From positions 1,864,538 through 1,928,537 of the forward strand of contig WLWN01000001.1 of NCBI GenBank assembly GCA_012103575.1: 64,000 bases of DNA, given 5' to 3'. The notes under the pieces are model-generated. The model did no database searches and had not been told where the DNA came from. It saw only the letters and a program-made list of their open reading frames with translations. The translations under genes were made by a program, and so were the position numbers. Shown here in pieces: positions 15,507 through 21,371 of the stretch. This DNA comes from Kiritimatiellia bacterium (GTDB lineage: Bacteria; Verrucomicrobiota; Kiritimatiellia; WLWN01). The stretch's first letter is position 1, and the number at the start of each line of letters is the position of its first letter.

Positions 15507-17164
15507 CCTGAATCCGTCAGATAAAATCTGACGATTTTTCATTACCTGTTGGGCTAAAGCGGGGAGCATACCCGTATTCAAACAAACAACCCCACCCCAA
15601 CAGGTGTGTATATGAAACAATATAAAATAAAGACTGGCAAGGGCGAACTCAACAGCACAAGCGGAAATCATCTTTGCGGCCTGCTGCTTGAGGATCATGC
15701 TCAACGGATTCTTCCCTCCAATTTTCAACCATGCCGCTCCGATGCGATCTCTGATCGGGAGATCCTCCTTACCCAGATCGGCTTACTTTGCAACGGTCGA
15801 ACCGATTTCAATGATATCGACCTGTACCGGAGTGATGAGATTTTTATGAATGCCTTTGGACTTAAAAAGGGGAGTTAAAAAGGTAGCCTCTGAGCCGGTG
15901 TTCCGACGTCGTTTCGACGACCTGCCCCCAGCCAGAACCCATGTGGGGCTACGCAAACTCAACACCGAACTTCTTTCCTCGGGCCCCTTTGGCTACGTAG
16001 ATGTCGAAGGGCTTGATCTTGTTCCCGTCGATATCGATGTGAGCCCTTTGGATTACTCAGGCTCTTCGAAAGAAGGCGTTTCCTACACCTATAAGGGCCA
16101 TGATGGTTACGCCCTGATATTTGCCTATGTGGGCACTCAAGGCCACATGCTTGAGTGCGAACTTCGACCCGGTAAACAACATTGTCAGTCGGGAACGACC
16201 GCGTTTATTGCCCGCAGCGTTGAAACGCTCCAAACCCTGGGCCTGGGTGGAAAATGTTTGCTTCGGCTTGATAGTGGCAACGCTGCGGCCGATAACTTCG
16301 ACGCTTTTGGGGATCATTATTTTATCGTAAAGCGAAATCCTCGCCGCGAATGTCCTAAACAAATGCTGGCCCTTGCACGCCGAGTTGGAGACAAATAAGA
16401 CAGTCGTGAAGGCAAGAACGTTTACACAGGCTTTTTCGATCATTTCCATCCCGGTGGTGACCAAAACCGCCCTTGTGTCCCGGTGGCCTTCGAAGTGATT
16501 GAACGCACCATCGATATCGATGGTCAGAAACTTCTGGTTCCTAAACTTGAGGTGAACACCTGGTGGACGAACCTCTCTTGTCGTGCCAAGACGGTGCTAG
16601 ATCTCTATCATGGACATGGCCCCAGCGAGCAGTACCATAGTGAACTCAAAAGCGATCTTGATGTTGAGCGATTGCCTTCGGGGAGACTCTGTGCCAATAA
16701 GATTATTCTGTTATGCGCCATGGTGGTCTTCAACCTATTGCGCGGTCTTGGCCAAGAGGTCATCAAACGGGCTGGGCTTGCCCCGCAGAAAATCAACATC
16801 CCGCGCTGGCGAATCAAAACGGTTCTCAAAAATATCGTTTATTGCGCGGTTCGATTGGTCCGCCACGCCGGACGAATTGAACTTCACTTTGGCAAGCGTT
16901 GTCGCTGGTTTGAAGTGATACAAGATATTGCCCATTCCTTCGCATAGCCCTCCGTGCACCTTTAACAATACTCTAAGGCGACTGCCCAAGGAGGCCTACG
17001 CCCCAAAATGGCCAAATCAGAGTGAATCTGACCTGTACGCTCAAAAAATTCATCAGGGTGATACTTGCCGGTCCCAATCCGCCCAAAAGCGAGCATCTCA
17101 AGGAAAAAGTTTTCAACTTTTGAGCCCCAAAACGCCTTCCGAAGCGATAGCTGACGGATTCAGG
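15507..17164 (+). mobile_element. IS1380-type insertion sequence, copy C
   Basis: Full-length, about 1658 bp, with perfect CCTGAATCCGTCAG ends. The flanks (CATTA and GTATA) do not match. It is the copy with the fewest shared lesions and is closest to the presumed ancestor. Confidence 0.9.
15612..16947 (+). pseudogene. IS1380-type transposase, copy C, least damaged
   Basis: It lacks both TAG codons that replace tyrosine in the other copies (it reads GYVDVEG and YTYKGHD). It still has the frame change after FGLKKGS near 15875. A private TAA replaces a glutamine near 16396, just after LARRVGDK. The second half is open to 16947 and holds NTWWTNLSCRAKTVLDLYHG and the Glu-containing SEQYHSELKSDLDVER. 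An active enzyme would need frame change plus stop readthrough. Confidence 0.85.
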
Positions 17165-18888: not shown

Positions 18889-19084
18889 ACGGCCTCCTCA
18901 CATTTAGGTCGTCATACTAAGCTTGTTTTGATTAGACGGCATTCATGAGGAGAATATTCATTTCTAATTAAAATGCCACGTTTTTTAAGAAAAACTTCTG
19001 AATAAATATTGTTCTATCCACGTCTAACCCGCTATGTTGTCCAATGTATATGACCCAAAATGAATTTAATACAAGGAGATGATT

Positions 19085-19711
19085 ATGAATAAAGTGCTAC
19101 GCCCTATAACCGTTCTTACATTCGCATCGACCCTCATGTATCTTGCGGGATGCCAAGCCTTTCGCGTTAACACAGAGAATGTTAATGTTAATGTTAATGA
19201 AGAAAGACATTTCGATGCTGAATTTGATTATAGCGATCTTCGAAAAATTACCCAAGGCATCGCTAATGAATTAGCCGCGAGTGTATTTTTAGCCAAAGCA
19301 GACGAGGCTCCCATTATGATGATTGCCGGTGTTCAAAACCGTACCAGCGAATATGTTGATACGAAATCTCTTAGTGATCGTATCCGGACCCTTTTATTTA
19401 AGACCAAAACCGTTCGATTCGTGAACGCAGCTCGCCGAACTGACCTCCTGAAAGAGCAAGGATATCAAGCCGCCCATGCCACTCCTGAAAGCCAAGCAGA
19501 AGTCGGTAGACAGCTAGGCGCTAACTATATGCTAAGCGGTGCTTTAGCCGAGATGAAAAATAGATCGGGGCGACAAGTTCGCATGTCCAGAAAAGAGTTA
19601 AACTATTATAAACTCACCATGGAAGTCACCGATCTAACAAGTGGTGAGCTCGTTTGGACGACTGAAGAAGAATTTGCACGACAAGCCAGCAAACCGCTTA
19701 TTGGATGGTAA
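19085..19711 (+). CDS. LpoB-like outer-membrane lipoprotein
   Basis: The start at 19085 is chosen over the ATG at 19079 because AAGGAG (19074-19079) is correctly spaced from it. A lipobox LAGC ends the signal peptide, followed by QAFRVNTENVNVNVNEE. The domain has LRKITQGIANELAAS, IMMIAGVQNRTSEYVDTKSL, VRFVNAARRTDLLKEQGYQA and GRQLGANYMLSGALAEM, matching the penicillin-binding-protein activator LpoB/CsgG family. In model bacteria LpoB stimulates PBP1B; here the role is inferred only. A large lipoprotein gene follows after the four-helix-bundle cassette, and the three probably once formed one unit. Confidence 0.8.
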   Translation: MNKVLRPITVLTFASTLMYLAGCQAFRVNTENVNVNVNEERHFDAEFDYSDLRKITQGIANELAASVFLAKADEAPIMMIAGVQNRTSEYVDTKSLSDRIRTLLFKTKTVRFVNAARRTDLLKEQGYQAAHATPESQAEVGRQLGANYMLSGALAEMKNRSGRQVRMSRKELNYYKLTMEVTDLTSGELVWTTEEEFARQASKPLIGW

Positions 19712-19754
19712 CGTTAAAGTCATAGACCCGTTTTCTACTTCTTGGGAAAAGAAA

Positions 19755-19791
19755 AACCGTAGATTAACAGAACAAGGAACTGCAGAATGTC
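19755..19791 (+). repeat. Left arm of inverted repeat around the four-helix-bundle gene
   Basis: Its core AGATTAACAGAACAAGGAA is also present, inverted, in the right arm at 20160-20197. About 34 of 38 positions agree when one arm is complemented. The arm includes the start codon of the enclosed gene. Confidence 0.85.
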
Positions 19792-20155
19792 CAATGCAAA
19801 GAAGCTTGACCTAGAAAATCGTCTTATCGATTTTTCGGTACGCATTATTCAGGTAACAGAAGCCTTGCCAGACAAAAAGACGGGAAAACATATTTCAACT
19901 CAACTTCTCCGATCAGGAACTTCGCCAGCAGCAAATTATGCAGAGGCACAAAGTGCAGAATCCAAAGCCGATTTTGTTCATAAAATCAAAGTAGTCCTTA
20001 AAGAACTTAGAGAAACCAAAGTCTGGCTAAAAATGATCGTTCCCTCACAACTCCTAAGCGGAAACACACGCTTAAATCCATTATTTCAAGAGAATGATGA
20101 ACTCATTTCTATTTTTGTCAAAAGCGAAAAAACAGCAAAAAACAATAGTCAGTAA
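19787..20155 (+). CDS. Four-helix-bundle protein (S23/IVP family)
   Basis: A 122-residue protein with LDLENRLIDFSVRIIQVTEA, the family signature QLLRSGTSPAANYAEAQSAE and KADFVHKIKVVLKELRETKV. This is the TIGR02436 family, first seen in intervening sequences of Leptospira 23S rRNA and structurally related to the Avd accessory protein of diversity-generating retroelements. Its molecular function is not established. The gene is enclosed almost exactly by 38-bp inverted repeats: the start codon lies inside the left arm and the right arm begins 4 bases after the stop. It separates two envelope lipoprotein genes. Confidence 0.9.
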   Translation: MSNAKKLDLENRLIDFSVRIIQVTEALPDKKTGKHISTQLLRSGTSPAANYAEAQSAESKADFVHKIKVVLKELRETKVWLKMIVPSQLLSGNTRLNPLFQENDELISIFVKSEKTAKNNSQ

Positions 20156-20159
20156 TTTT

Positions 20160-20197
20160 GATATTCTGCGATTCCTTGTTCTGTTAATCTGCGGTTC
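20160..20197 (-). repeat. Right arm of inverted repeat around the four-helix-bundle gene
   Basis: It is the complement of the left arm at 19755-19791. The complement reads ACCGCAGATTAACAGAACAA then GGAATCGCAGAATATC. The sequence resembles a widespread family of intergenic repeats containing CAGATTAACA. Confidence 0.85.
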
Positions 20198-20201
20198 AAA
20201 A

Positions 20202-21371
20202 TCCAAACTACAAAGCTCCTGGAAACCTCCGGGAGTCATCCTTGTCATCATAGCAATCGCATTATGCGGTTGCACAACAACCGGACTAAACTCCGCGCGA
20301 CGTTGTTTTTATCAAGGCGATACTCTTCAAGCAAAAGAAGAACTACGTGATAACCAGTACGCCGAAAAAGATCGCGTTCTCTATCTCATGGAACGAGGCG
20401 CCATCTATCAGGCTTCGCAAGATTATAAAAAGAGTTCTCAAGACTTTATAGAAGCTTCAAATCTTCTCAGTGATCTCGAAACATACAGTGTATCCAAAGG
20501 ATCAGCGAGCATGGTCATTAATGACTCTGTACAACCTTTTAAAGGGGCTCCTTTTGAGCGAACACTGCTACACACCCTAACAGCATTAAACCACCTAGCC
20601 GTAGCCCGATGGAATGATGCAGGGGTTGAAGCCAGACGTATTATTCAAACGTTGGACCCCGAAATAAAAAAAGATTACCCGGACGATGCCTTTTCACGAT
20701 ATGTTGCTGGTTTTTCATTAGAACTCATTGATGACCCCTCTAACGCAGCGCTCCAATACCGAAAAGCAGCTGAACTGTCGAGCGTCCAGATCGATGAACA
20801 TACAGGGTTCATCTCTGTTCCAGATCAGAAACCAGCTCGAACATCGAAGCGTTCCTTTAAAAACGAATTAATCTCCTTCATTCTAATAGGACGTTCACCA
20901 CGCGGTCATACAAATTTAGAAAACTCATATAGATCGACAAGCCCGGTCAACTATGTTGACGTTTACCATCAAGGCATCTATTTGGGGCGGAGTTACAACT
21001 TAGCCAATACCTATGAACTTTCCATGGCTACCGACGTACAAACCGCCATTCATAAGACCCTAAAAACAGTCAGTCGCGTTGCGGTTAAAGAAACCATTGC
21101 CGATGTCGTCGAAAAACAATCTGGCAACAGCGCGTTAGGAGATGTGGTACGACTCGTTTTAGTCGGTATGCTCGAAAGACCAGACATTCGCCGATGGGAG
21201 ACGTTGCCTCACTTACTGCAAGTGGTACGCGTACCCTGCCCCGACAATTTATCGGATTACAAAATGGTATACAGAGATGGAAACCACAACACCCTCGATA
21301 CAGTTACCGTAAGCAGTCCACTCACCAAACACCGACATAAATACGTTTCTTTTTGTCGCATCACACAATAG
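20202..21371 (+). CDS. Large lipoprotein (COG3014-like), start codon uncertain
   Basis: A hydrophobic stretch GVILVIIAIALCGCTTTG with a lipobox cysteine marks an outer-membrane lipoprotein. The mature part is helical with TPR-like character (QAKEELRDNQYAEKDRVLYL, GAIYQASQDYKKSSQDFIEA), then SMVINDSVQPFKGAPFERTL and HTLTALNHLAVARWNDAGVE, which resembles COG3014 proteins found next to LpoB-like genes. No ATG, GTG or TTG lies in frame between the right inverted-repeat arm and the lipobox; the frame is open upstream through the four-helix-bundle gene. The cassette insertion may have removed its native start. Confidence 0.7.
   Translation, partial: SKLQSSWKPPGVILVIIAIALCGCTTTGLNSARRCFYQGDTLQAKEELRDNQYAEKDRVLYLMERGAIYQASQDYKKSSQDFIEASNLLSDLETYSVSKGSASMVINDSVQPFKGAPFERTLLHTLTALNHLAVARWNDAGVEARRIIQTLDPEIKKDYPDDAFSRYVAGFSLELIDDPSNAALQYRKAAELSSVQIDEHTGFISVPDQKPARTSKRSFKNELISFILIGRSPRGHTNLENSYRSTSPVNYVDVYHQGIYLGRSYNLANTYELSMATDVQTAIHKTLKTVSRVAVKETIADVVEKQSGNSALGDVVRLVLVGMLERPDIRRWETLPHLLQVVRVPCPDNLSDYKMVYRDGNHNTLDTVTVSSPLTKHRHKYVSFCRITQ

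Follow-up and report, generated by a model that had tools for sequence, protein, structure and literature searches.

An S23 gene between inverted arms in a Kiritimatiellia operon, a candidate copy of a widespread minimal element

We analyzed a window of 64,000 nucleotides from a Kiritimatiellia bacterium (positions 1,864,538 to 1,928,537 of contig WLWN01000001.1, assembly GCA_012103575.1), where a small gene of the S23/IVP family lies between two inverted arms inside a lipoprotein operon. Packaging in inverted arms belongs to the S23 family, as we found it at nearly all of the S23 genes that we sampled. The explanation that we consider somewhat better than even, including its candidate mechanism, is that the cassette is a copy of a widespread minimal element made of an S23 gene and inverted arms of short tandem units, usually of 7 nt.

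The cassette and the operon around it

The features at the locus are the following (positions are those of the window):

19079..19711, forward strand: upstream host gene, LpoB-like lipoprotein (PF13036, E 4e-27)
19755..19794, forward strand: left inverted arm; AAGGA, resembling a ribosome-binding site, and the start codon of S23 lie within it (score 30, shuffle maximum 13)
19787..20155, forward strand: S23/IVP four-helix-bundle gene, 122 aa (PF05635, TIGR02436, 2RLD)
20157..20196, forward strand: right inverted arm, which shares the reading frame of the lipoprotein downstream
20094..21371, forward strand: downstream host gene, COG3014-like lipoprotein, whose open frame now extends upstream across the right arm and reaches the S23 gene

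The S23 protein passes the curated cut-offs of two family models, PF05635 (E 3e-15, 56.7 bits, cut-off 33.8) and TIGR02436 (E 3e-24, 85.3 bits, cut-off 24), which bears out the identity proposed in a preliminary description of the sequence. Its nearest solved structure by sequence is 2RLD (E 4e-17). The inverted arms of that description are also real, and a repeat search refined them to 40 nt each, 88% complementary and spaced by 362 nt. They are the sole inverted repeat within the surrounding 1 kb, and their local-alignment score of 30 compares with a maximum of 13 among 50 dinucleotide shuffles. The S23 start codon at 19787 falls within the left arm, as first described, while the stop codon ends at 20155, which leaves a gap of one base before the right arm instead of the four originally counted. 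Between the arms we found the S23 gene only, and no transposase gene. The cassette lies outside rRNA genes, with the LpoB gene on one side and the lipoprotein gene on the other, and Rfam models had no match in positions 19500-20600. We followed the earlier proposal to search the genome for the arm: its core has no further copy at 0-2 mismatches, and we rejected the possibility of a dispersed genomic repeat. The other main S23 genes of this genome (L002, L003/L032) have inverted arms too, of unrelated sequence. RVT_1 matches lie about 1 Mb from S23 and none adjoins the cassette. As side observations, a broken DDE transposase gene (PF13701) occupies positions 15850-16947, about 3 kb upstream of the cassette, and another S23 gene of the genome is split by an element of 165 bp whose inverted ends measure 25 nt (TCCTGGATCCGTCAGTTAAACG; L002:1814-1978).

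The downstream lipoprotein has no match among Pfam or NCBIfam models, and the label "COG3014-like" is taken from the preliminary description, made from sequence alone. Of the 240 class genomes, 145 encode a homologue, its own included (144 others). At the 29 other loci that we fetched, the LpoB gene is always directly upstream and S23 is never in between; in the 28 relatives that could be scored, the two genes are separated by 0-108 nt (median 10 nt). The window is thus the sole occupied LpoB/lipoprotein junction among the loci compared. Because all 28 scorable relatives keep the operon without S23, the comparison supports the window cassette being an insertion into an existing operon, in line with the initial reading. 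That reading had counted relatives with the same gene order and no arms against itself. Such relatives occur, yet they also lack S23; they are therefore empty sites, which favour insertion.

The cassette removed the usual start codon of the lipoprotein, a loss already noticed in the preliminary description. No ATG, GTG or TTG is found after 20115 and up to the lipobox; the last in-frame starts, at 20094 and 20097 (ATG) and 20115 (TTG), are all inside the S23 gene, and apart from these the frame offers only rare start codons in the right arm. In one relative (L085, genome G079), the junction harbors heptad arrays and no S23. Two of these arrays (AGAAGTC and TATTGCC types, L085:1430-1530) appear to encode the N-terminus or signal-peptide region of the lipoprotein.

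Inverted arms and repeat units across the family

To assess the arms across the family, we aligned the 300 bp upstream of each S23 gene with the reverse complement of the 300 bp downstream. Among 99 loci, two of them counted twice owing to overlapping frames, 86 (87%) had inverted arms with a score of at least 15, and around 13% had no detectable arms. This score was reached by 6% of mismatched pairs, 1% of shuffles (1-2%), and 8% of random pseudo-cassettes. The loci were ranked by E-value, which biases the sample toward well-conserved S23 copies; S23 starts were set by rule, and most genomes are draft assemblies. A search set from the phylum, mostly but not solely of other classes, gave arms at 20 of 24 S23 genes. 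On plasmids, from cyanobacteria and others, together with one phage contig, arms with a score of at least 17 were found at 20 of 21. None of 25 Usp genes from these genomes, taken as a control family of comparable size, had arms. The sequence of the arms differs from element to element, and related S23 genes at different sites can bear similar arms. E. coli genomes searched with one S23 cassette (L038) gave no match. We also considered that arms might be three-frame stop cassettes and rejected it, as stop codons are no richer in the right than in the left arm.

S23 arms are made of short tandem units. Of 173 arms, 147 had their best lag at 7 nt, and the period recurs in sharp harmonics at 14 and 21. 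The unit varies by element, with a weak common grammar, T-R-A-N-N-T-C (2.3 bits, compared with at most 1.9 after permuting columns). A cyanobacterial example is (TAATTCG)n, and the S23 flanks of Planktothrix contain (CCAATCC)n, which we take to match the cyanobacterial STRR1 consensus. Solitary heptad arrays without S23 are also present. A gene-less heptad hairpin at G000:C1 1681480-1681616 (in L198) reaches as far as the start codon of the following gene. The arms of the window have a weak period, with a best lag of 8 in the right arm (0.50) and values of 0.24-0.33 at lag 7. Given this weak 8-nt period, the window copy is, within our preferred explanation, an older or atypical member of the S23 elements.

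Pairing of the arms, insertion sites and a second cargo

We regard as unlikely, while giving it real weight, the possibility that the cassette is an RNA intervening sequence, in which the operon transcript would form a stem from the two arms and RNase III would cleave it, freeing the S23 piece as in 23S rRNA. RNase III does cut the stems of rRNA intervening sequences (IVS; PMC4990558). The one-hairpin transcript suggested in the preliminary description is indeed the predicted fold of the window transcript (z = -6.6), and it speaks for RNA processing. So does orientation: between co-directional neighbours, S23 is in the sense orientation in 43 of 49 cases and opposed in 6 (36:6 with stricter gene calls, 10:1 in the phylum set). 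A selected RNA stem should favour G-U over A-C mismatches. In the arms of 75 elements, read as sense RNA, the two were equally frequent (159 G-U and 163 A-C), and a further count gave 27 and 49, whereas tRNA acceptor stems of the same genomes gave 6 and 0. As the G-U excess is absent, the arms are better accounted for in other ways than by RNA processing. Moreover, an RNA stem needs no repeat period. The equal mismatch counts suggest that the pairing of the arms is kept or made in DNA and does not result from selection on an RNA stem.

In five genomes that share one site, the units alternate among TAAGC, TAGGC, and TCAGC, and the two arms always switch together. Changes on both sides were found at 9 of 26 pairs, and the covariation score was above all 500 shuffles and all slid registers; the arms had been trimmed by hand (26 nt, in register), a choice that itself favours pairing, but the slid controls indicate that the effect exceeds that of trimming. 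Changes on both sides at a fixed site would also fit RNA processing. The concerted change is easiest to explain by re-copying of the arms.

S23 and its arms might instead act as a domesticated regulator within operons, passed on by vertical descent and retained for the benefit of the host, which we find improbable. In its favour, orthologous S23 pairs have a dN/dS of 0.04-0.25 where it is computable, i.e., the compared genes are under purifying selection, and several related genomes retain S23 at one and the same site. Against it stand the patchy occupancy of each site, the very different neighbours, the number of copies per genome, which goes from 0 to 18, and the relatives in other phyla. 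S23 was found above the cut-off in 51 of 57 genomes of the class and 143 of 195 of the phylum, and the window protein groups with Marinimicrobia, Lentisphaeria, Bacteroidota (Niabella), and its own class (support 0.98).

Two further loci show the empty site at base level. Between purB and purM (names given from reading the translations, with no family search), the element is present in three genomes of one genus; in a fourth, an 18-bp spacer separates the genes. With the element, the start codon of the downstream gene comes from the right arm; at the empty site the flanks have diverged and no target-site duplication is recognisable. At the junction of family f56, S23 is present in 8 genomes and missing from 20 others. 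Several of these 20 hold other hairpin cassettes, some of which resembled GxxExxY (PDDEXK_3) genes, and one (G420) keeps a remnant with only the C-terminal end of S23 and the right arm. Several copies of another gene, PDDEXK_3, at this junction look internally deleted. In four loci (L280, L281, L283, L288), gene-less hairpins (CCACGGATGAACACGGAT type; CCGCTAATCCGCGCTAAT type) occupy the junction at which relatives carry S23, so that this junction is an insertion hot spot. On plasmids, S23 genes were observed inside defence operons (L169, L268, L177, L171, L170, L172, L178), between cas2 and cas1, csx2 and cas1, drmD and a MmeI-like gene, or helicase and methylase genes.

The inverted ends, the empty sites, and the multiple copies are also what one expects from a non-autonomous DNA transposon, whose terminal inverted repeats would be served in trans by a transposase or a reverse transcriptase. 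We give this a low probability, since the ends are different in every element, no target duplication was seen, RVT_1 is absent from genomes with 13-18 S23 copies, and the Y1 transposase is absent from several S23 genomes. Dependence on either enzyme was rejected, as several S23-rich genomes lack one or the other. We saw no near-identical S23 copies at different sites and thus no recent transposition. The interpretation first suggested for the window is partly supported, with the empty sites in its favour. Neither a transposase, nor a target duplication, nor recent transposition was found, so that we infer a putative mobility of S23 from its patchy distribution.

Genes of the GxxExxY family (PDDEXK_3), unrelated to S23, are found in the same genomes, with inverted arms at 26 of 29 loci in the class. 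Their arms have a period of 9 in 23 of 42 cases and of 7 in none (Fisher test against S23, 6e-29). As S23 and PDDEXK_3 occur in the same genomes with units of 7 and 9 nt, the length of the repeat follows the cargo family and is set by the element rather than by the host. The preliminary description had anticipated neither the family-wide packaging nor the family-specific period. The shared genomes speak against an origin by the host polymerase and in favour of an encoded protein that would recognise its own repeat units. Arms of around 9-nt units were seen at loci L302-L331, L279, L286, L289, L295, and L298. It is very improbable that heptanucleotide arrays arise from polymerase slippage with S23 genes merely alongside: solitary arrays exist and slippage has been proposed, as summarised in PMC4679880, but the period of 9, never 7, of a different cargo in the same genomes contradicts it, and the arrays on both sides of S23, in mirror order beyond unit shuffles in 42% of cases (p<=0.05), speak against it.

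A candidate mechanism and known systems

In the minimal element that we favour, an S23 oligomer would recognise the DNA of its own arms, which would probably be folded or single-stranded during replication, and may aid host replication or strand-annealing functions in re-copying them. Occasionally the whole cassette would be re-copied into gaps between co-directional genes, which may tolerate an insertion in sense orientation. The intervening sequences of 23S rRNA would then be copies of this element that settled in rRNA helices, and its remnants would survive as solitary heptanucleotide arrays.

Known systems offer partial parallels. RAYT/REPIN systems, like S23 cassettes, have a gene between inverted element-specific repeats, with gene-less copies elsewhere. 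The S23 cassette differs in having no Y1 transposase, and S23 is not known to be an enzyme that cuts DNA. The Avd protein of diversity-generating retroelements has a related four-helix-bundle fold; unlike it, S23 has no adjoining reverse transcriptase, and many S23-rich genomes are devoid of RVT_1.

The 23S rRNA IVS resemble S23 cassettes in the S23 gene, the complementary stem-forming ends, the heptameric repeats, the size of around 430-440 nt, and the sporadic presence (PMC4990558). In Coxiella burnetii, the IVS has an S23 ORF, a 28-bp stem, and GACAGAT heptamers at the 5' end, and is excised by RNase III (PMC4990558). The window copy differs in that it lies between protein genes and its arms are not clearly heptameric. 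Heptanucleotide repeats are known in Xanthomonas, Nostoc, and Beggiatoaceae, with no link to S23 (PMC4692102, PMC4679880), e.g., the cyanobacterial STRR, GGGAATC/GGGGA(T/C)T (PMC4692102), and TAACTGA of Beggiatoaceae (PMC4679880). Like S23 arms, they are 7-nt tandem units adjoining genes, and MacGregor proposed an unidentified protein that binds them. S23 elements are a likely source of bacterial 7-base repeats. Our literature search found no paper joining these repeats and the S23 family; subscription papers were mostly beyond reach, and priority is not established.

More broadly, and with slightly less than even confidence, these cassettes may be a new class of minimal mobile elements, in which a single small gene that is no transposase (S23 or, independently, PDDEXK_3) is enclosed by inverted arms, with the encoded protein setting the length of their tandem units (7 and 9 nt). 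They would spread through bacterial operons, with rRNA IVS and heptanucleotide repeats as special cases or remnants. S23 proteins have been annotated for decades without a function, and neither the origin of IVS nor the source of heptanucleotide repeats is established. Should S23 genes and these repeats prove to be a single element, the three puzzles would merge into one that can be tested, as both the protein and its DNA target have names. The second family, PDDEXK_3, whose repeats have a length of their own, points to a broader class of tiny elements, of which repeat finding and gene annotation each detect only half.
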